Positions 10,223-19,749 of a stretch of DNA of 30,018 bases are shown here, in pieces; within the stretch, counting starts at the first letter, position 1, and every line of letters starts with the position of its first letter. Position numbers and translations under genes: made by a program. The notes beneath the pieces are model-generated. The model did no database searches. It worked only from the letters and a program-made list of their open reading frames with translations, and was not told the DNA's origin. Source of the DNA: a virus. The stretch spans positions 1 through 30,018 of the IMG/VR virus record IMGVR_UViG_3300025070_000156; one strand, 5' to 3'.

Positions 10223-12688
10223 TTAATTTTCAAAAATGTTTTCAAGTCTTGGTTTGCGTTCTGGTGAAGTTTCACCTGTTCCCCACCAATAATCTTGTCC
10301 GTAGTCTTTTCTAAATCGTCTTTCCATTTTACGCATTTTCTTTCCAGCTTTAGGATCTGCCCACAATTGTAATTGATCTAAAACATTTCTTTCTAGTCCT
10401 AAACGTAAATACCAAATAGAAGAACCCGGAGCGTATCTGCCAGTAAATTTTATAAACTCAGAAGCTGCTTTTGTATCTTCTCCTTTTGCAACTTCTAATA
10501 AATTACCAATTGTTAATTTTCTAATATCATTTGCAAACCCCACAGTTGGCCCAGCAATTGTTTCATATAAACCACGTTCATATCTATTTACATCTGAAAA
10601 TAAAAAATCACCATATATACCCAAGCCACCACCTTGCATAAAAGCAGCGCCCCAAAAATCTTCTGTGTTCATAGGACGCGGATCACGACCTTTTGACATT
10701 TCTTTTAACTGTAACGCTAATGCGCCCATAAGTGTTGTTGATATTAATAAATTAGTAAAGTACGCACCTTTGCCAGCCAATCCTTGTTGCGTCATGCCGC
10801 GTACTAAATGTGTATTAACAAGTGTTACGCCAAAGTTTTTATACATGGCAAATGATCTTGTAATTTCACCAGCTATTGTTCCCGGTCTGCTATCAGCTGT
10901 TAAAGCAACTCTACCGCGAATACTTGAAGATGGTACAGCAAAATTAGTTTCCGTATTTACCATTTCCAACACTCGCGTTGTTAAACTTTCAGCAACATCT
11001 GAAGATATATCTGTTCTAGATCTTATATCTGCCGGGCGTAAAAACTTAGCTCCACGCTCTTCATATTGTTGTGTATTCCTAATAATATCCCAACTTTGTT
11101 CATCAAACCCATAACGCTCAAAAGTGCGTTTAAAATTTGGATCTAAATCAGCAAATCTTTTATTTGCGTTACTTGCCATAGTACCAAGAAATTCCATACC
11201 AAACGCCCATCGACCAGCGCTTGTCATTGGCGATAGCAAAGAAGCGCGCATAACAAAATCCGCTGTTCTTCTTGTTATCTCTGGACCTGATATGTCTCCT
11301 ACATAACGCATTTGACCAGCTGCTAAACTTGTCCAACCTTCGGCAATTAAACCTAGACGTATTGCTAACTCACCTTTTTCTTTTGCACCTAGAGGATTAA
11401 GTAAATCTAAATACTGTGTTATTGTTGACGTTTGAGGTATACCAGCAAACGACCTTGCCATACGTTGAAAATTTAAATCAGTTATTGCAGATATAGCAGC
11501 TGATCCTAATTGTGCAGATTGAAGTATCTGTCGTGTGCCAGCCATTGTTGCAGCGAATACACCATTAACAGGTTCGTTGTTTCGACCTGTTATAGCCATA
11601 TACAATTCATCTATTTTTTTTGCTGTAGACCTTGCTTTGTTTTCTGCTTTAACGTCACCTGATGATTTTTTATTTAAAGTTTGCTTAAGAAAAGTAATTG
11701 TTGCATTCGGATTAGGACCAAGAATTTCTAATTGCGCTATGTCTCTTGACATATTTGTTACATGAGAAATCATAGTATCAAATGAATTAGGATTTCCAAA
11801 CTTTTCTTGGTACTGCATCCAACTGTCTGCATCTGCAAAAGATAAAAACCTATGGTCTTGCCGCCTGTTTCCTAAAGATTTACCATTTGATGCACCGCCC
11901 GGCGTAAGTTTATTCATACCGTCCGATTGTATCGTTTCAAAAACATCACGTAATACAACTTCTAATTTTTCGTCAGAAAAAGCTAAACCTGTGTTTTCAT
12001 CTATCATCTTTGTGCGGTCTAAACGCGGTGTTACAAAATCACGCCATGTTTCATATCCAGCTTTGCGAACCTCTAACATATCGTGTGATTGCGGCAATCC
12101 CCAATCCAGCCGTTTAGGTATTGCACCACCAGCCCGGTTAAAACGTTTACGCAACAACTCAGAAGCATCACGCCAACTTTGAGCTAACTCACGCGCGCTT
12201 ATATCGCCTGTATCTTCACCAAAAATTTCACGCACAACATTTTTTAGTTTAGCTTTTTGCCTTACTTCACCAATTGTATTTCTGCGAAACGTACCCAAAA
12301 TTTTAGACATTTCGCCAAAAGCTTCACCTTTTATAGCTTCTTCTCTTTGTGCAACACTGGAAAACCGTGAGTTACCATCTTGCTCAAAATGAGATAGTGC
12401 AGCTTTGTATATGTCTTGTTCACCTAATGACGTTCTGTAATCGTCAAGGTTTCTTGTTATTTGTTGCCAAGTACGTAGCTGCATAGATTTTTGTCTTTTG
12501 CGTTGCGTTGTTTTTCTTTGCAATGCGTTAAATGTATCAAGCCCAGCTTGCGATTGTGCAGCTGCATTATTCATTTTACCTTGGTATTGCTCTTCTAATT
12601 CATCAAACAAATCACGCGCTTCTTTCGCTTGGTCTTGCGTCAAAGCTCCTTCATTAACTGCGTCATCAATACATTTTCTAAAACTCAT
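10223..12688 (-). CDS. Large internal-core / ejection protein (helical, membrane-active segment)
   Basis: This 821-aa protein is mostly helical. The first 220 residues are charged and coiled-coil-like. The centre contains AATMAGTRQILQSAQLGSAA. A hydrophobic segment lies near residues 643-668 (YFTNLLISTTLMGALALQL), followed by DPRPMNTEDFWGAAFMQGGG. It ends in a basic stretch and WWGTGETSPERKP. Position after the 1096-aa protein and before the fibre matches the distal internal core genes of T7-like phages, so membrane-channel formation at DNA ejection is likely. ATG 12688 is preferred over the in-frame GTG at 12697: AAGGTG is correctly spaced for it and it gives an ATGA overlap. No lytic transglycosylase motif was seen. 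Confidence 0.75.
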   Translation of the reverse strand: MSFRKCIDDAVNEGALTQDQAKEARDLFDELEEQYQGKMNNAAAQSQAGLDTFNALQRKTTQRKRQKSMQLRTWQQITRNLDDYRTSLGEQDIYKAALSHFEQDGNSRFSSVAQREEAIKGEAFGEMSKILGTFRRNTIGEVRQKAKLKNVVREIFGEDTGDISARELAQSWRDASELLRKRFNRAGGAIPKRLDWGLPQSHDMLEVRKAGYETWRDFVTPRLDRTKMIDENTGLAFSDEKLEVVLRDVFETIQSDGMNKLTPGGASNGKSLGNRRQDHRFLSFADADSWMQYQEKFGNPNSFDTMISHVTNMSRDIAQLEILGPNPNATITFLKQTLNKKSSGDVKAENKARSTAKKIDELYMAITGRNNEPVNGVFAATMAGTRQILQSAQLGSAAISAITDLNFQRMARSFAGIPQTSTITQYLDLLNPLGAKEKGELAIRLGLIAEGWTSLAAGQMRYVGDISGPEITRRTADFVMRASLLSPMTSAGRWAFGMEFLGTMASNANKRFADLDPNFKRTFERYGFDEQSWDIIRNTQQYEERGAKFLRPADIRSRTDISSDVAESLTTRVLEMVNTETNFAVPSSSIRGRVALTADSRPGTIAGEITRSFAMYKNFGVTLVNTHLVRGMTQQGLAGKGAYFTNLLISTTLMGALALQLKEMSKGRDPRPMNTEDFWGAAFMQGGGLGIYGDFLFSDVNRYERGLYETIAGPTVGFANDIRKLTIGNLLEVAKGEDTKAASEFIKFTGRYAPGSSIWYLRLGLERNVLDQLQLWADPKAGKKMRKMERRFRKDYGQDYWWGTGETSPERKPRLENIFEN

Positions 12689-15600
12689 ATCGGACACCTT
12701 GATAAACGATCAATCATTACATCGTCTTGATCTATTTCTGACAACAGTTGTCGCGCAGTAACTGTACGAGCAACTACGTTATTATCTGCATCAATCATTT
12801 GTTCTACAGGAAATTCTGCGTCCAACAGGCTTTCTTCAAGCTGTGGAACCTCTACGCTTTCCGCGCGTTCCGAACGCGCTGCAATAACATCTGCGCCGCT
12901 GGCTCTTGCGCTCGTTTTATTGCCCGGCTCTCCACTTCTTCGTAATCGAAAGTCTGTGTTGGCAAGGAGGCCTCTGGTATCTTCGTTGATTGGCCTAACT
13001 GCGTCTTTTGCAACTTCATTGTTGATGCGCGAGTATCCATCTGCAACACCTTCCTTTCTAAGTATATTATAAGTCTCTGTTGGTAAATTGCCAACCTTTT
13101 CTATATATTTTGGATCTATTAGCCTACCTGTTGCAATAAAGCGCGCAATCATTCTTCTAAATGCTTCGTCAACATTTACCACCATATCAACTAAATCAAC
13201 TTCGTATCCGTTATCTTTTAAACGTTTTATAACGTCTTTTATTTTATTAGGATCAGAACCAACTTTCGGAACAACTAAATTATCACCTTGTTCCATTAAA
13301 TCACTAAAAACCAAATCAGCTAGTACAGAACTTTCTTCATGCACAGCGCTTGCGCCAATGCCGTTGTTAAATTCTGGCAAAATCCTTTTTGCTTCATCAG
13401 CATCCACTATAGAAGCGCCAAGACTACGCGCTATTGGGTTTGCAATGCTACTTTTACCGCTTGCTGGTGGACCCATAATAATTACTGCTTTTCGTTCTTG
13501 CCGTAAAGAATTAGCTGCATACTCTAATCCATCATCAACATAACTAAGCGTCCTTGCTCCATTAATAAGATACTCTAACGCTTCTTCCGCTGACGCATCT
13601 ATACGTGAGCCAATGCTATATTCTCTTGTTGCGTACCATTCGTCAGTGTTAAAGTTTGGTCTTTTTGCGGTTTCTGGCAAGCTGTTCATTGCGTCAACAG
13701 CTGTAACAATTGCCGGGTGTGACAGGATCTGTTCTTTTGACGCGCCAGTTTCTACTAGACGCCGCAAATCTTCTTGCAGCAATTCTGGTTCAGTTAAATC
13801 TGCTCTTATGTCTTCAGCGAGTGCTGCACTTTGTTGCGTTGTTGCATCACCATAAGGATCGTCAAACATATCTAAGTTGTTTTGGTCTTGCTCATTTCGT
13901 AACGCAACTTCTTGCGGTTCAGCATTGACAATGCGTCCAACATCGCCAACCTCTGCGCGTTCAAAGTCGCCCTCGTCAATTGCTCGTCTGACAGCGTTGA
14001 GAAAGCTTCTTGTAGCTTCGCCGTACGATCCTTGTTGTTTTGCAAGGGAAGCTGCATTTGAGAGCGCATCGGAGAGTTTGCCTTTTCTGTTTGCTTGGCT
14101 TTGGAGGAGCGCGATTGCTTTGCCATCTTCTACTGTCCTTTGTTTGTTTGCATCTTTTGCAAGCTGATTACCTTCACCTTCAATACGATCTGCATTACGA
14201 ACAAGATTTTGAAATGCAGATTTATCTTTACGTAATTGATTTTTAGCACGTTCTAACACTTTGGCGCGTTCTAAAAACAAACTTTCTGTAATTACCTGTT
14301 CTCCAAACAAACTATCTTGCGTTTCTTTTGTAACTCCTGTTTCAATTACTTGACGCACAATGCTTTCCGCTTGGAATTGCGTTGATGGATTTGTTTTAGA
14401 TAACACAGTCATTGCAGCATTTTGCATATCTGCATCAGTACCAATTAACCGACCAACAATTGCTCCGTATTCTGGTTGCACAACTTCATTTACTATCATG
14501 CCAAAAGCATTGTCGTTTAAATTTGCAAGACCTCTTGCTTGAGAAACAAACTGCGATCCTTTTGGAAAACTAGGATCATTTACTCGTTCTGGAGAAAATC
14601 TAAATATTTTTGCAGCATCTGTTACTGACCCTGTACCTTCGGATATATTTTTAAATGCAGCTGTAACCATTGCTTCTTCGGGTGTATAACCATCTACCTC
14701 ACGCAATTTACGCCCATATAATACTACTTCTTGGGTAGGGTCTTGTGATTTTATTCTTTTAGCCAATCCTAATCTTTGATGCCCATCTGCTATAAACTTG
14801 TTGCCATTGGCGTATTCATAAACAGTAACTTGTCCAGCCGCGTCTGGGTTCCACACAGTTACATCACGTAAACGTTCTGTTACACCATACTGATCACCAC
14901 CAGCTTTAAATTGAAATGTTTCGGCATCTACTTCTATTTCGTCTGGATCAAACTTAAATACTTGTCCATCTAAATTATCAGACTCAAAAACATTTTCTGG
15001 TTCTTTTATATTAGATTGCGGAGCGTCTGTTATTTTTGGTGCAACATTTTCTACTAATGCACGTTGCGTTTCTAATGTTCTTGCGTTGTGTTCTAGCTCT
15101 GCATTTGGGCCATCTAAAGGATTTTGCGCAGCGTTTTCTATTTCGCTATTGTACATAATTTCAGCGCCACGACTAACATCTGTTTCTTTAGCTGCGCCAC
15201 TGTTTATTAAAGATCGGTATCCTTTTTGAAGTTGATCAGCTGTAAGCTCAATGGTTTTGCCGCCAATTTTTATTACACCCACAAACGCAGCACCAGTTGC
15301 CGCTGCTGTTAAAACAGAATTTCTAAACTCTTCGTACCCATAATCAAAACCAAGTTCTTTATACCATGCAGCTACCGCTGGTTGATAAGCTGCTTCTATT
15401 GTTGAGTTAATTAGTGCTTCTCTAAACATTATTCCGACTAATGTTTTTGCACCCAAAGAAATTGGTGATGCAGCTGCGCTTACCGATAAGTTTACCGGGT
15501 CTACTGCTTCCGCTGCAAAAGCACCAGCATAGCTTGCAGCTGTCGGCAAAAACCCTTCTGCACGATTATAAACATCTTCACCTTCTTTAATATCTTTAAT

Positions 15601-15975
15601 TGATTTTTGTTTTGCATCGTTTCGTATTTTTGTTTTGTACTCTGGATCAAGAAGTAATGAAAAATCACCTTTTAAGTTTTCTAAATTATTACGTACATAC
15701 GTCTGTATCTTAAATATTTTGCGGTCATAATTTGCACCGCCAGCATCGTACCAAGGAAGAGGATGGTCAAAGTTCACACCAGTTTGCGCTTCTAGCTCTT
15801 CAATTACGTCACTTAGAAAACCTTGCTCATACCACCGGGCAGCTAATGGTTGTGCAGCTTGAGCACCTTTGTATGCAGCTGTAAAGTTTTCAGCAACGCC
15901 TGTTGTGGGGCTTGCCTTGCTTGGCAAGCTTTCTGCAAAAGTAGGATCGTTGTCTTGAAAATTTAAAACGCTCAT
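12685..15975 (-). CDS. Polyvalent ejection protein with ParB-like and Zeta-toxin-like kinase domains
   Basis: This 1096-aa protein sits among internal-core genes and is probably packaged and injected. Residues 1-330 are helical with Ala-rich hydrophobic stretches at about 141-183 and 219-240. Residues about 340-465 resemble the DdrB-type ParB/Srx-like nuclease fold: FKFDPDEIEV, then ADGHQRLGLAKR at 396-407 (Gly-His-x-Arg core), then a helical EEAMVTAAFKNISEGTGSV block. Residues about 829-985 form a Zeta-toxin/PezT-like P-loop kinase: Walker A GPPASGKSS (835-843), DAD (858-860), VHEESS (878-883), and FRRMIARFIATGR (939-951) with the arginines expected for nucleotide binding. Zeta toxins phosphorylate UDP-N-acetylglucosamine; the substrate here is unknown. 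No epsilon-like antitoxin lies nearby. AGAGGAT supports the start; both ends overlap neighbours as ATGA. Confidence 0.8.
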   Translation of the reverse strand: MSVLNFQDNDPTFAESLPSKASPTTGVAENFTAAYKGAQAAQPLAARWYEQGFLSDVIEELEAQTGVNFDHPLPWYDAGGANYDRKIFKIQTYVRNNLENLKGDFSLLLDPEYKTKIRNDAKQKSIKDIKEGEDVYNRAEGFLPTAASYAGAFAAEAVDPVNLSVSAAASPISLGAKTLVGIMFREALINSTIEAAYQPAVAAWYKELGFDYGYEEFRNSVLTAAATGAAFVGVIKIGGKTIELTADQLQKGYRSLINSGAAKETDVSRGAEIMYNSEIENAAQNPLDGPNAELEHNARTLETQRALVENVAPKITDAPQSNIKEPENVFESDNLDGQVFKFDPDEIEVDAETFQFKAGGDQYGVTERLRDVTVWNPDAAGQVTVYEYANGNKFIADGHQRLGLAKRIKSQDPTQEVVLYGRKLREVDGYTPEEAMVTAAFKNISEGTGSVTDAAKIFRFSPERVNDPSFPKGSQFVSQARGLANLNDNAFGMIVNEVVQPEYGAIVGRLIGTDADMQNAAMTVLSKTNPSTQFQAESIVRQVIETGVTKETQDSLFGEQVITESLFLERAKVLERAKNQLRKDKSAFQNLVRNADRIEGEGNQLAKDANKQRTVEDGKAIALLQSQANRKGKLSDALSNAASLAKQQGSYGEATRSFLNAVRRAIDEGDFERAEVGDVGRIVNAEPQEVALRNEQDQNNLDMFDDPYGDATTQQSAALAEDIRADLTEPELLQEDLRRLVETGASKEQILSHPAIVTAVDAMNSLPETAKRPNFNTDEWYATREYSIGSRIDASAEEALEYLINGARTLSYVDDGLEYAANSLRQERKAVIIMGPPASGKSSIANPIARSLGASIVDADEAKRILPEFNNGIGASAVHEESSVLADLVFSDLMEQGDNLVVPKVGSDPNKIKDVIKRLKDNGYEVDLVDMVVNVDEAFRRMIARFIATGRLIDPKYIEKVGNLPTETYNILRKEGVADGYSRINNEVAKDAVRPINEDTRGLLANTDFRLRRSGEPGNKTSARASGADVIAARSERAESVEVPQLEESLLDAEFPVEQMIDADNNVVARTVTARQLLSEIDQDDVMIDRLSRCPI

Positions 15976-18743
15976 TGTGATCCTCTGTTTAGGATGCCTT
16001 TAGAAGAAGTTAACACACGCTCAATAACCATTTTATTTTTTGGTTTTAATCCTTTGCTACGTAAAAATGCTGCAACTGCTTCTTCTGTTATAGAATTTAT
16101 ATCAGCCCCTTGCGCTTTTACAAAATCAACAAATTGTTCCGTTGCTTCATACCATCCAATACTAACAGCGTTAGCATCAGACATTTTGTATGTTTCAAAA
16201 ACTTGTTCTGCTAGTTTGCCGGTTACTTCTTTTTTGGTTTGTGAATTGTAAACTTTTCTAGTGCCAACATCTAACCAGTATTCTATATCTCCACTCATTT
16301 TTGTTCTATAAGCAGAATTTTGCAGTTTATCCCATGTTTTAGCATCTACAATGTCAGCATCTATTAACCTTGAGCCGCTTAAAAGTTCTAGCTGCGCTTT
16401 TTCTTCTTCAGTTAAATTTTGCAATTCAATATCTATTTGTGCAGCTTGTTCCGCTTCTTGTTGAGCAATTTCTTCTTTTTTTCTAACGTCTTTAATAGTT
16501 TGTAATAATTCTATTCGTTGTTTTGCTGGCTGTATTTCTTCATAAATAAATTCTACAGGTAGCCCGGTATCAGATCGAACAACTTGCTCATTTCCTACAT
16601 CGCCGTACAAAAATCCATATACATTACGTCCTCTATTGTCTTTTCGTGAAACAAACACAGAATAGTTTTGGTCCGTAACTTCTTTTAATATTTCTTGCAA
16701 GTTTTCATTTCTTGGGTCAAAACTAGACAAGTTTGTTGTTTTCGCCATTTCATTAATTGTTTGCAAGTCTAATGTTTTAATAGCTTCTTCAAACTCTTCA
16801 TCACTTGCATCTAATGGTCTAAAATACGATCTTCCATTGTAAACACCTACACCGCCACGCTCACCATCTTTTGAACCACCTAATGCGTAACTTATAATAC
16901 TATTAAATTCTTCTTTATCCATTTCAGCAACATTTAACCCTTGTTTCAAAACTCTTGCAGAAATAATTGCTTCAACAGCTTGTCGCGTTGTATTATTTAA
17001 TTGCGCTGCCATTCTTTCCGGCAACATAGAAAACGCACCTTGCATATAAGAACTAAATAAAATTTCTCCTTCACCATCAACAGCACTAGATAAAGAAGCT
17101 TTATTTTCTGCCATCATACCAGTTTGAATTTCAGAGACGGCAGAACTATTTATACCTTGTTGTTGCATAAGTCCGGCAATATGCCCAAGAAGCGGAGCAT
17201 CTTTACTTATTTGCCTAAATAAATGTTGTGCATCTTTACCAAGCGCCGATTGTATAGCACCGATTGCGTTCCGTTGGTCAGCAAAGCCCATATTATCAAA
17301 CACGTTATTTAACTGCACAACTTCACCATCGTCTAGAATTTTTGGTAAAAGACCACGCGCTGTACGATTATAGACACCATCTATTTCTCTATAAAGACTG
17401 TTTCGTATTTTTAAACCTTGTATGACATTGCCAATAGATTGCTCACTTGAAAAATCAAAGTTTATTCTTTTAAATTTACCAGCTAATAATCCGTTTTGTT
17501 GCGCAACTTGATACGGCGTATCGTCAATTCTTTTTTGAAATTTTGTTTGGTAATCTTCTAAGAAACTAATAACATTACGCTGACGTTCAGTTTCCGTTCC
17601 TTCTGCGCGTAAGTCATTTATATACTTTGTAATCTGGTTCGGGTTCATTTGCCGTACTTCATTACGTGCGGCAGTAATAGCTGCTAAATTTTCATACCCG
17701 GCAGTTATGTCTTTTGCTTCACCGGGCGGTAATATTTGAATAGCTTGTTTTACTTTTTTTTCAATATTATTGTAATCAGCTAAAGAAACATCAAACCCAT
17801 CAATAATTGCTTTTGTGGCTTCCTCAATATCATCCGCTGCGCTTTTAGCAAAAACTTCTTGAGTTTTAAGTAAATTCTCTTCTTCTATTGTTTTGCCATC
17901 AATCGCTTGTCGTGTCGATCCTACTGAGTTTAAAATCTTTGCCCGGTCCTCTGGACGCAATCTTTTTAGTAACTCAACTTCTATTAACCCATCACCACCA
18001 GCATCAATTAGTTCTTGCAAATCATCGTCACGCAGCGCTTTATGTATTGCAGAAAACTTTGTTAATGGTTTGCCACTTTCATCTACAAATTTCTGTAGCC
18101 GTCTATACGCAACATTATTAAGTAGAGCATACTCCTGTTCTTGTAATGCAACTGGATCAAAATCTAGCACAGTTGATAATTTGTTACTTTCAGCCCCGGC
18201 TTCTTTTAATAGCAAATCAAGATATTGTACTGTTTCCGCATCAACAGCTTTATCTTCTTTATCTTGCAAATATTGCCTATGAGTAGCTTGCGTATCTGCT
18301 TCTATCTTTTGATCAATAACAGTTCGTAATCTAAAACGTTGTTGTAACTCTTGCCTAGAAAACGTTTCGTCAAACCGTTGTAATGCTGACCGATCAGTTC
18401 CAACACTGTCACGCATCTTTGTGCGAATACTTTCAGTTGTTTTATTCCACTCAGGATCATCTCCATCTAAGACGCCCCAAGGTTTTTCTGATTTACTAAG
18501 TCTATTGTATTCTTCTGCTAATTGTTCTTGCGTACCAAGTAACGCATTACTAAGTTGTGCCTCACGCGCCATCTTATACCGCATTTGTGCAAACTGCCCT
18601 ACTTGGCTAACTGCCTCGCCAAAGACATTTCCTTTAGCTAGTGCTTGCTGCACATATGGTTCTGCCCTCATACGCGCAGTCATAGAACGACCCGGCGCTT
18701 GCGTAGAGATAGAACCTCTTGATTGATACCTTGGTATTTTCAT
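15972..18743 (-). CDS. Internal virion protein, T7 gp15 position
   Basis: This 923-aa, highly charged and almost fully helical protein starts MKIPRYQSRGSISTQAPGRS. Long coiled-coil stretches include about residues 45-165 and 725-770. A C-terminal portion holds a YWLDVGTRKVYNSQTKKEVT beta segment and a Lys-rich end. No enzymatic motif was found. Size, helical character and order (after a gp14-like gene, before the largest ejection protein) match gp15 of T7, which forms part of the internal core and the periplasmic DNA conduit. AAGGTGA directly upstream fits ATG 18743. Its stop overlaps the next gene as ATGA. Confidence 0.75.
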   Translation of the reverse strand: MKIPRYQSRGSISTQAPGRSMTARMRAEPYVQQALAKGNVFGEAVSQVGQFAQMRYKMAREAQLSNALLGTQEQLAEEYNRLSKSEKPWGVLDGDDPEWNKTTESIRTKMRDSVGTDRSALQRFDETFSRQELQQRFRLRTVIDQKIEADTQATHRQYLQDKEDKAVDAETVQYLDLLLKEAGAESNKLSTVLDFDPVALQEQEYALLNNVAYRRLQKFVDESGKPLTKFSAIHKALRDDDLQELIDAGGDGLIEVELLKRLRPEDRAKILNSVGSTRQAIDGKTIEEENLLKTQEVFAKSAADDIEEATKAIIDGFDVSLADYNNIEKKVKQAIQILPPGEAKDITAGYENLAAITAARNEVRQMNPNQITKYINDLRAEGTETERQRNVISFLEDYQTKFQKRIDDTPYQVAQQNGLLAGKFKRINFDFSSEQSIGNVIQGLKIRNSLYREIDGVYNRTARGLLPKILDDGEVVQLNNVFDNMGFADQRNAIGAIQSALGKDAQHLFRQISKDAPLLGHIAGLMQQQGINSSAVSEIQTGMMAENKASLSSAVDGEGEILFSSYMQGAFSMLPERMAAQLNNTTRQAVEAIISARVLKQGLNVAEMDKEEFNSIISYALGGSKDGERGGVGVYNGRSYFRPLDASDEEFEEAIKTLDLQTINEMAKTTNLSSFDPRNENLQEILKEVTDQNYSVFVSRKDNRGRNVYGFLYGDVGNEQVVRSDTGLPVEFIYEEIQPAKQRIELLQTIKDVRKKEEIAQQEAEQAAQIDIELQNLTEEEKAQLELLSGSRLIDADIVDAKTWDKLQNSAYRTKMSGDIEYWLDVGTRKVYNSQTKKEVTGKLAEQVFETYKMSDANAVSIGWYEATEQFVDFVKAQGADINSITEEAVAAFLRSKGLKPKNKMVIERVLTSSKGILNRGSQ

Positions 18744-18752
18744 TTTTTCACC

Positions 18753-19292
18753 TTACGCAAAACTAGGAAATTTTAAACCAGCATCGTAGCCAGTTCTAGC
18801 CGCCGATCCAAATCCCGAAATAAGACTTTGCATACCTTGCGCACGTAACGCACCAGCTGATGCACCACCTTCCATTCTTGTAAGGTCAGCCGTAAGTTGT
18901 ACATTTTCTTTTGCATCGGCAATCTGCATTTGAGTAACGCTATCGTTAAATCTGTTAACAGCCATATCGTATTCAAATTCTCTAGCGTTTTGCCTTAAAA
19001 CACGCATAGGCGTTCCTTGTGCAATGTCTATTCCAGCGTAGCCATAGTTAGCTATCACCGTTCCTTGCTGTTCAGAAAATCTAAATCTGTCTACTTTTTC
19101 ACGCAATAAAGCATTTGCATTAAGTATTTTGCTTTGCTTGTCGAGAAGACCAATGTCTCTTTCAATCAAATCAGCATTAAAGTTTGCAGCTTCTTGCGCT
19201 TTTTCAGCTGCTCTATCAGCAGAATTTTTTTGAGATATGCCACCTATTATTTGTGAACCACCTACAATATAAGTAAAAGCATTAGCAGCCAT
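18753..19292 (-). CDS. Internal virion protein, T7 gp14-like
   Basis: This 179-aa protein begins with a hydrophobic helix (AANAFTYIVGGSQIIGGISQ). It continues as a long helical region rich in Ala, Gln and Asn (GLLDKQSKILNANALLREKV; MQIADAKENVQLTADLTRME). It ends in Ala/Gly-rich segments (SLISGFGSAARTGYDAGLKF). That pattern is typical of gp14-type internal proteins, which insert in the outer membrane at ejection. It lies between the GNAT gene and the gp15-position gene, exactly as in T7 order. Confidence 0.8.
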   Translation of the reverse strand: MAANAFTYIVGGSQIIGGISQKNSADRAAEKAQEAANFNADLIERDIGLLDKQSKILNANALLREKVDRFRFSEQQGTVIANYGYAGIDIAQGTPMRVLRQNAREFEYDMAVNRFNDSVTQMQIADAKENVQLTADLTRMEGGASAGALRAQGMQSLISGFGSAARTGYDAGLKFPSFA

Positions 19293-19293
19293 T

Positions 19294-19749
19294 TTATATC
19301 AACCTTTTTGCAAAAACATTTTCTATATTCTCAAACCCAAGACGATCTAATAATTTATCAAAAGGTTTGTGTCGTTTGACGTTTATCATTAAGATAGACG
19401 CGCCGTATTCTTTTAATCTTTCTTCAGCAAATTTTATAAGCTTCCAACCAGTAAAACCTTTTCTATGTTCTGGTGCTATATAAATTATATCATTCTGTGC
19501 AAATATGTGATCTTGATAGTGCAAATTAGGAGCTACCGAAACAACAAAATACCCTATCATAATACCATCTTCTCGCGCTGTATAAATTTTTAACGCACCT
19601 ATGCTTTCGTATTTTTCATACATATCCCAATTAGGATTAAATTTTATTATATCTTTATTTAACGCTATTTCTTCGTAGTGCCTTATAAGCAACGGAATAG
19701 CGTCTGCTTTAGCTTGGTTTAATGTTTCTTCTGCGTATACTACTGTCAT
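19294..19749 (-). CDS. GNAT-fold acetyltransferase-like protein at T7 gp13 position
   Basis: This 151-aa protein shows the GNAT pattern: beta4 DIIYIAPEHRKGFTGWKLI (residues 87-105), where the HRKGFTG segment stands in for the usual Q/R-x-x-G-x-G/A acetyl-CoA loop. A helix follows (KFAEERLKEYG), then MINVKRHKPFDKLLDRLGFE and a final strand. T7-like gp13 proteins, required for virion assembly, occupy the same slot between tail tube B and gp14. A structural or assembly role is therefore as likely as catalysis. The acetyl-CoA loop is non-canonical, so activity is uncertain. The start overlaps the stop of the tube-B gene as ATGA. Confidence 0.8.
   Translation of the reverse strand: MTVVYAEETLNQAKADAIPLLIRHYEEIALNKDIIKFNPNWDMYEKYESIGALKIYTAREDGIMIGYFVVSVAPNLHYQDHIFAQNDIIYIAPEHRKGFTGWKLIKFAEERLKEYGASILMINVKRHKPFDKLLDRLGFENIENVFAKRLI

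Follow-up and report, generated by a model that had tools for sequence, protein, structure and literature searches.

A modular protein of a podovirus ejection cluster carries a zeta-fold kinase in an exchangeable bay

Which role might a kinase with the fold of a bacterial toxin play in a protein encoded among the DNA-ejection genes of a phage? The question is raised by a gene in a 30-kb fragment (30,018 nucleotides, here called the window) of an uncultivated virus. The gene (12685..15975) lies on the minus strand, as do all features given below, and forms a single intact frame for a protein of 1096 amino acids, designated P0001; the plus strand across this region is full of stops. These exact ends had been given in a preliminary description, which left the strand unstated. 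The frame begins with an ATG at 15975 in a 4-nt overlap with the upstream stop and ends in a 13-nt overlap with the downstream gene. The upstream gene (15972..18743) encodes P0003, a large protein of 923 amino acids for which no family match was found and which is called gp15-like by position, and beyond it lies a gene for a gp14-like internal virion protein (18753..19292, phrog_418). The downstream gene (10223..12697) encodes P0002, a virion structural protein of 824 amino acids belonging to phrog_684 and homologous to phiV10 p20 and VP2 p19/epsilon15 gp17. These genes are part of a DNA-ejection cluster, the phage being short-tailed (a podovirus) and uncultivated, and the position of P0001 between the gp15-like and phrog_684 genes matches the gene order of phages phiV10, VP2 and SI2. 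As P0002 is of the epsilon15/phiV10/VP2 type, the slot corresponds to phiV10 p19/epsilon15 gp16, and the earlier label of a T7-like gp16 protein, inexact in its reference phage, was dropped. From this synteny we infer that P0001 would be present in the virion and be delivered into the cell.

A search with the whole of P0001 gave only a near-identical record, and relatives were recovered with the conserved neighbour P0002 as bait. Comparison of the slot in 80 contigs carrying the P0002 gene revealed a scaffold at the N-terminus and a tail at the C-terminus that stay constant while the segment between them is exchanged, so that the kinase is one of several exchangeable payloads, a point missed in the preliminary description. 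This bay comprises residues ~721–1047 (12835..13815), with limits taken from sister pairs with similar flanks. Its contents, typed with profiles built in part from the sequences they score, were a zeta kinase, a RelA/SpoT synthetase resembling Tas1, extra ParB/ART domains, or nothing (SI2, L023, L027, L030, L047 and L065); zeta and RelA/SpoT domains never occurred within one slot protein. In the sister pair L047/L017, flanks of 92% identity lie on both sides of a clean insertion of 274 amino acids, and in the pair L024/L086 flanks of 95% and 94% identity enclose different cargo. The P0002 tree requires thirteen cargo changes (minimum 2). Sequence comparison indicates that the content of the bay is exchanged by recombination. 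The alternative cargo matched the profile of Tas1 (Apk1; 6ox6), a (p)ppApp synthetase and type VI effector, with E=3e-27 and Pfam RelA_SpoT with E up to 8.9e-11; its K, K, D and E residues were invariant in 38/38 sequences. In contrast to Tas1, this payload, which is found in relatives and is absent from the window, would reach the cell, if it does so, through phage ejection, and its product would be ppApp or ppGpp. P-loop-like strings in L051, L052, L059 and L061 proved to be false leads, these proteins being devoid of ParB and carrying RelA/SpoT.

The scaffold (residues 1–335, 14971..15975) was delimited by profile matches and recurs in nearly all slot homologues whatever their cargo, including those of Vibrio phages ZCVPP1 and VP2. 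It showed homology to the slot proteins of the cultured phages SI2 (4.4e-49), ZCVPP1 (2.9e-26) and VP2 (VP2p18, 3.2e-16), and comparison with phiV10p19 gave no match. The tail (residues 1051–1096, 12688..12825) contains an invariant Cys1094. Gene DVVG_00008 of Dunaliella viridis virus SI2 shares scaffold, ParB module, tail and gene order with P0001 but has an empty bay and thus no kinase. Among 50,697 phage records no slot protein with a loaded bay was found, SI2 being the closest record from a cultured phage.

The segment following the scaffold is formed by a predicted ParB-like N-terminal domain of the CTP-clamp type (residues 338–470, 14566..14964) and a helical region (residues 471–690, 13906..14565), the first part of which resembles the DNA-binding domain of ParB/Noc; by dN/dS, both together are the slowest-evolving part of P0001. 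An AlphaFold model of residues 331–696 (pLDDT 82, pTM 0.67) retrieved ParB, Noc and Spo0J structures in the first 25 places of a Foldseek search (best E=5.3e-5, probability 1.00). The matches included Noc N-terminal plus DNA-binding domains as well as DNA-binding domains only, and the alignments covered nearly the whole target with modest TM-scores of ~0.35–0.45 on the target. The motif ADGHQR (residues 396–401, 14773..14790) is invariant in 33 aligned sequences and is the likely counterpart of the GERR box of ParB/Noc, which is replaced by GHQR in the homologues of P0001. Pfam ParB models matched neither residues 331–696 nor any of 30 homologues, profile–profile comparison with five chromosomal ParB proteins by hhalign (a shallow profile of five sequences) gave no match, and neither did the DdrB-type Pfam model in P0001. 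Hence it is the predicted fold by which we call this module ParB-like. The preliminary description as a ParB-like nuclease domain is borne out as regards the superfamily fold and the motif at 396–401; the term nuclease was not supported, as none of the 30 homologues matched a Pfam ParB model and the structural matches are CTP-dependent DNA clamps with their DNA-binding domain (7nfu, 7bnk, 6t1f). From these clamps P0001 differs by GHQR in place of GERR, by the lack of a match with the shallow five-sequence profile and by the absence of a ParA context. The late-gene context and the active-site arginine agree with the published description of DdrB-type domains. For a ParB CTPase in virions, a search of the literature returned a single unrelated paper.

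The payload in this genome is a P-loop kinase of the zeta-toxin fold (residues 793–1013, 12937..13599), an identification that profile, model and structural search together make secure. Pfam Zeta_toxin (PF06414) matched residues 825–965 with E=6.5e-16 and 58.8 bits (curated cut-off 22.3). With the AlphaFold model of residues 790–1014 (pLDDT 85.6, pTM 0.86), Foldseek ranked the zeta toxin of pSM19035 first (1gvn/3q8x; E=4.6e-11), followed by PezT (2p5t) and then AvrRxo1/XopAJ, and polynucleotide kinases were also among the matches. The kinase suspected earlier at about residues 829–985 was thereby recovered together with its motifs: the Walker A sequence GPPASGKS (residues 835–842, 13450..13473; K841 equals zeta K46), DAD (residues 858–860, 13396..13404; D860 aligns with the catalytic base D67), AVHEESS (residues 877–883) and RFIATGR (residues 945–951, 13123..13143; R945 equals R158, and R951 equals R171 by position beyond the printed alignment). 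Among 90 distinct sequences, the Walker A lysine and serine, the Asp67 equivalent and the Arg158 equivalent are invariant, and the Arg171 equivalent is kept in 80/90. Close pairs show purifying selection on the kinase domain, with dN/dS mostly 0.04–0.24. The zeta and ParB motif observations are far beyond chance. Three homologues of the kinase (L093–L095) are free-standing bacterial proteins, and a role in the virion is therefore not intrinsic to it.

The explanation that accounts best for these observations, and which we regard as likely, is that P0001 is a modular ejection-cluster protein carrying an exchangeable enzyme into the host, probably as a standard vehicle by which enzymes reach the bacterium when infection starts. 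The constant scaffold and tail would serve to pack and eject P0001, while the ParB-like module would hold on to DNA, either entering or of the host, in a manner that depends on NTP. The bay between this module and the tail holds a payload swapped by recombination. In this genome the zeta-fold kinase most likely phosphorylates a nucleotide-like or nucleotide-sugar metabolite other than UDP-GlcNAc and may so shift host metabolism or block a nucleotide-based defence; an alarmone synthetase resembling Tas1 occupies the same bay in sister phages. More tentatively, and with somewhat less than even confidence, one can propose that the virions of near-identical phages each deliver a different nucleotide enzyme free of immunity, either PxVG kinase or Tas1-like synthetase, and that each enzyme is joined to an NTP-gated DNA clamp of ParB type able to load onto the phage genome as it enters.

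A more restricted form of the carrier explanation, which we consider conceivable but doubtful, holds that abortive defences based on nucleotides or NAD fail because the payload alters a nucleotide signal or a cofactor, for example NAD. AvrRxo1 is a zeta-fold kinase with NAD kinase activity. AvrRxo1/XopAJ is the sole NCBIfam match of the kinase (E=1.9e-5) besides its Foldseek rank next to zeta/PezT, the alternative payloads are likewise nucleotide enzymes, and payloads that are dispensable and swapped fit an arms race; NAD binding, however, would be by analogy with AvrRxo1, to which identity is ~19%. It appears unlikely that the bay is a structural part or evolutionary passenger, its kinase acting in the producing cell as an aid to assembly, packaging of the genome or repair of DNA ends instead of being delivered as an effector. 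The structural matches with polynucleotide kinases would suit such a role, and the phages with a cargo-free slot indicate that the payload is not essential, but the catalytic residues are strictly conserved and the bay is also exchanged for a Tas1-type synthetase, an enzyme for which we know of no role in DNA-end repair or assembly.

Equally improbable is the reading of the kinase as a true zeta/PezT toxin that halts cell-wall synthesis by phosphorylating UDP-N-acetylglucosamine, with the ParB part acting as nuclease. Zeta toxin and PezT are indeed the nearest solved structures, sharing fold, Walker A, catalytic aspartate and two arginines with P0001, and a role of this kind was proposed for MuF-fused zeta domains by Iyer et al. 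2017 (PMC5512222). The loop binding UDP-GlcNAc in zeta (EGTxR; E116-G117-T118-G119), however, is replaced by PxVG, in P0001 PKVG (residues 903–906, 13258..13269), with V905 aligned to T118. Valine occupies the Thr118 position in 79/90 sequences and threonine is kept in seven; Arg120 is kept in three and replaced in 87, and the loop residue Glu116 is kept in none, its position being proline in 89. The other contacts, Thr128 and Glu100, are kept in 10/90 and 33/90 sequences. The change of threonine to valine at the Thr118 site abolishes the toxicity of PezT (PMC3062530), and with these substitutions UDP-GlcNAc is an unlikely substrate, contrary to the preliminary description, which had considered its phosphorylation and a block of wall synthesis. 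The alignment indicates a kinase with intact ATP and phosphotransfer residues and a lost UDP-GlcNAc site, and the ParB-fold matches, being CTP clamps, argue against the nuclease part of the same reading.

Unlike zeta and PezT, the kinase of P0001 is fused to a virion-type protein and lacks an antitoxin, as had been noticed earlier: both overlapping neighbours are structural genes with no cognate epsilon/PezA gene adjacent, and in nearly all relatives the slot stop lies ~-6 to +13 nt from the next gene, which leaves no room for an immunity or antitoxin gene. A toxin–antitoxin addiction module stabilising a prophage or plasmid state, although the usual setting of zeta proteins and the interpretation suggested for a zeta homologue of a TARA marine virus (PMC5332604), is therefore rejected as highly improbable, the kinase being a domain of a virion-type protein and the 30-kb window showing no integrase.

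P0001 is the podovirus counterpart of two described groups of phage proteins. Polyvalent proteins (PMC5512222), whose listed domains include DdrB-type ParB, RelA/SpoT and ART, with zeta-like kinases in MuF fusions and conjugative elements, are likewise multidomain proteins in a late-gene context, and P0001 resembles them in combining several effector-type domains, a ParB-fold module and a zeta kinase, in one ejection-cluster protein. It differs by its small fixed podovirus scaffold with a single bay between ParB and conserved tail, by the alternation of zeta and RelA/SpoT, by the absence of a detectable metallopeptidase domain in the slot and by a ParB part matching CTP clamps with a DNA-binding domain. 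With the MuF polymorphic toxins of temperate phages (PMC5576092) it shares a virion-type protein, exchangeable toxin domains and the proposed entry with DNA; these toxins include RelA-like domains, and adenosine 3'-pyrophosphokinase MuF toxins are described (PMC12226406). In contrast to MuF toxins, which reside mostly in siphovirus heads, P0001 belongs to a podovirus ejection cluster, gave no match to the Pfam MuF domain, carries its cargo internally rather than C-terminally and has no neighbouring immunity gene.

PxVG kinases form a defined clade of the zeta fold for which UDP-GlcNAc should not be assumed as the substrate. The slot protein also offers another reading for 'zeta toxin' genes of marine viruses, earlier taken as signs of lysogeny (PMC5332604). 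For such phages it would seem to defeat their own purpose to kill the host on which their progeny depends. If the proposed carrier function is true, a bacterial toxin enzyme of the type VI class and a zeta-fold kinase share a single swappable bay within a virion protein, and the loaded and empty bays of close relatives would represent a natural experiment on virion-delivered enzymes in the first minutes of infection.

The preliminary description had recognised a ParB-like nuclease domain and a Zeta-type kinase in a putative virion ejection protein. A frame check showed that this protein, P0001 (1096 amino acids), is encoded by one intact gene at positions 12685–15975 on the minus strand of the window, a fragment of the viral genome, and the motifs named earlier were found in its translation. 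The gene shares 4 nt at its ATG with the stop codon of the upstream 923-amino-acid gene, and its end runs 13 nt into the start of the downstream virion structural gene P0002 (824 amino acids). P0002 falls into phrog_684 (E = 9e-183), and homologues of it occur in the podoviruses phiV10, SPN1S and VP2, among others. In phiV10, the annotation of the gene immediately preceding the P0002 homologue notes similarity to epsilon15 p16; VP2 shows the same gene order at this slot. The gp14-like gene of the window was assigned to phrog_418, an internal virion protein; a GNAT acetyltransferase gene (phrog_1249; 19294–19749, minus strand) lies between it and the gp12-like tail gene. As the ejection proteins of podoviruses are packaged in the virion and exit the capsid together with the DNA or ahead of it (PMC8954989; PMC13320782), P0001 would, by analogy, be delivered into the host at infection.

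Because a search with whole P0001 retrieved a single near-identical record, the neighbouring P0002 was used as bait, which yielded 80 viral contigs; the protein preceding P0002 could be extracted from 71 of them, near-copies and truncated ones being included in the counts. Nearly all 71 slot proteins share an N-terminal scaffold and a 45-residue C-terminal tail with a conserved cysteine, while the bay that separates the ParB module from the tail varies from about zero to 560 residues. Its cargo was a zeta kinase in 15 proteins, a RelA/SpoT-type domain in 41 and neither in 15, and never both; the typing profiles were derived in part from the sequences they score, and independent support for both assignments came from Pfam, PDB profiles and Foldseek. 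The bay is empty in L023, L027, L030, L047, L065 and the cultured Dunaliella viridis virus SI2, and L081 consists of scaffold and tail only. One clade (L048–L063) has RelA/SpoT (Pfam up to 8.9e-11) but no ParB, in some members with ART-PolyVal; an ART-PolyVal-like domain was seen in L048, L050 and L057 (E about 1e-4). In the 1467-residue slot protein L074 the order is permuted, with RelA/SpoT ahead of ParB. The cysteine near the C-terminus (C1094; 12688–12705) has counterparts among the last few residues of the slot proteins of SI2, VP2, ZCVPP1 and phiV10 and of aligned contigs, proteins that are barely alignable elsewhere; it is possibly part of a packaging or membrane motif.

Cargo exchange is recent and clean at the DNA level. 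The empty L047 and the RelA/SpoT-bearing L017 share 92% identity up to residue 721 and then from residue 736 across the following gene; an insertion of 274 residues separates these flanks. L024 and L086 differ in cargo between flanks 95% and 94% identical, and a similar pattern was found in L014/L046, L024/L026, L045/L072, L043/L064 and L041/L040. On a P0002 tree of 50 rows we counted 13 cargo-state changes against a minimum of two; as this is a quick tree with some long branches, single events should not be over-read. For example, the RelA/SpoT phages L045 and L072 group inside the clade that holds the zeta phage of the window, and the zeta phage L066 is sister to the empty SI2.

The RelA/SpoT-type cargo of ParB-bearing slot proteins is hardly detected by Pfam. 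A profile of 18 such cargo sequences matched the type VI toxin Tas1 (6ox6; E = 3e-27) and, more weakly, other alarmone synthetases; all 38 distinct rows retain the two lysines, the aspartate and the glutamate of the synthetase site.

The Zeta-type P-loop kinase was borne out by a Pfam Zeta_toxin match to residues 825–965 (E = 6.5e-16) and by an AlphaFold model of residues 790–1014 built on ten homologues (pLDDT 85.6, pTM 0.86), which retrieved zeta toxin (1gvn/3q8x; E = 4.6e-11) as best PDB match, followed by PezT and then by the type III effector AvrRxo1 and polynucleotide kinases. In a comparison of 90 distinct homologous sequences from viruses and some bacteria, no substitution was seen at the Walker lysine, at either aspartate of DxD or at the position equivalent to Arg158; the position equivalent to Arg171 holds arginine in 80. 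UDP-GlcNAc, the substrate of zeta and PezT kinases, is disfavoured here by the binding loop: HMMER alignment to 1gvn and 2p5t, gap-free near the site, places P-x-V-G where zeta has E116-G117-T118-G119-R120 (proline in 89/90, valine at the Thr118 position in 79/90, Arg120 retained in 3/90). Glu100 is retained in a third of the homologues and Thr128 in 10/90. Thr118 contacts UDP-GlcNAc, and exchange of the PezT threonine for valine gave a non-toxic protein (Mutschler et al.; PMC3062530). The kinase is likely an active phosphotransferase with a substrate other than UDP-GlcNAc. Given the similarity to AvrRxo1 and the company of alarmone synthetases, nucleotides or dinucleotide cofactors would be the first candidates. 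Free-standing bacterial proteins of about 306–344 residues from Flavihumibacter, Burkholderia and Massilia contigs (L093, L094, L095) belong to the same PxVG clade and possibly reflect its source or cellular function. The clade is also present in other phage proteins of 316–3293 residues (L149–L198) in which the tail of the slot proteins is absent, so that it spreads among distinct virion carriers.

The proposed ParB-like nuclease domain found no ParB match in sequence libraries, and stands as a predicted fold. A model of residues 331–696 from 30 homologues (pLDDT 82, pTM 0.67) gave ParB, Noc and Spo0J as its first 25 structural matches, of which Noc 7nfu was the best (E = 5.3e-5, probability 1.00). 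The alignments covered nearly the entire two-domain targets; separate matches to DNA-binding domains alone were weaker, and sulfiredoxin ranked far lower. Since TM-scores were modest and profile-profile comparison with five chromosomal ParB proteins gave no match, we restrict the claim to a predicted ParB-like two-domain fold. The motif ADGHQR is invariant and probably occupies the place of ParB GERR. This part is the slowest-evolving of the whole protein (dN/dS mostly 0.00–0.15 in close pairs). In L025, L026, L046, L064, L072 and L080, a second ParB-like domain (ParB_N E = 0.0015 in L025), with DGNSTY replacing DGHQR, precedes the RelA/SpoT domain of the cargo region.

The general class is that of the polyvalent proteins, for which ParB-type, RelA/SpoT and ART domains were described, together with zeta-like domains in MuF fusions and conjugative elements (Iyer et al. 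2017). Phage-encoded (p)ppApp synthetases are also known (PMC12691689). The MuF polymorphic toxins of temperate phages likewise carry exchangeable toxins, including RelA-like ones, but theirs have immunity proteins, whereas the slot has no adjacent immunity gene. Within the literature searched, this absence and the predicted ParB clamp-like fold appear to be new, as do the podovirus ejection-slot version of the class with its internal bay between constant parts and the alternation of a zeta-fold kinase with a Tas1-like synthetase.
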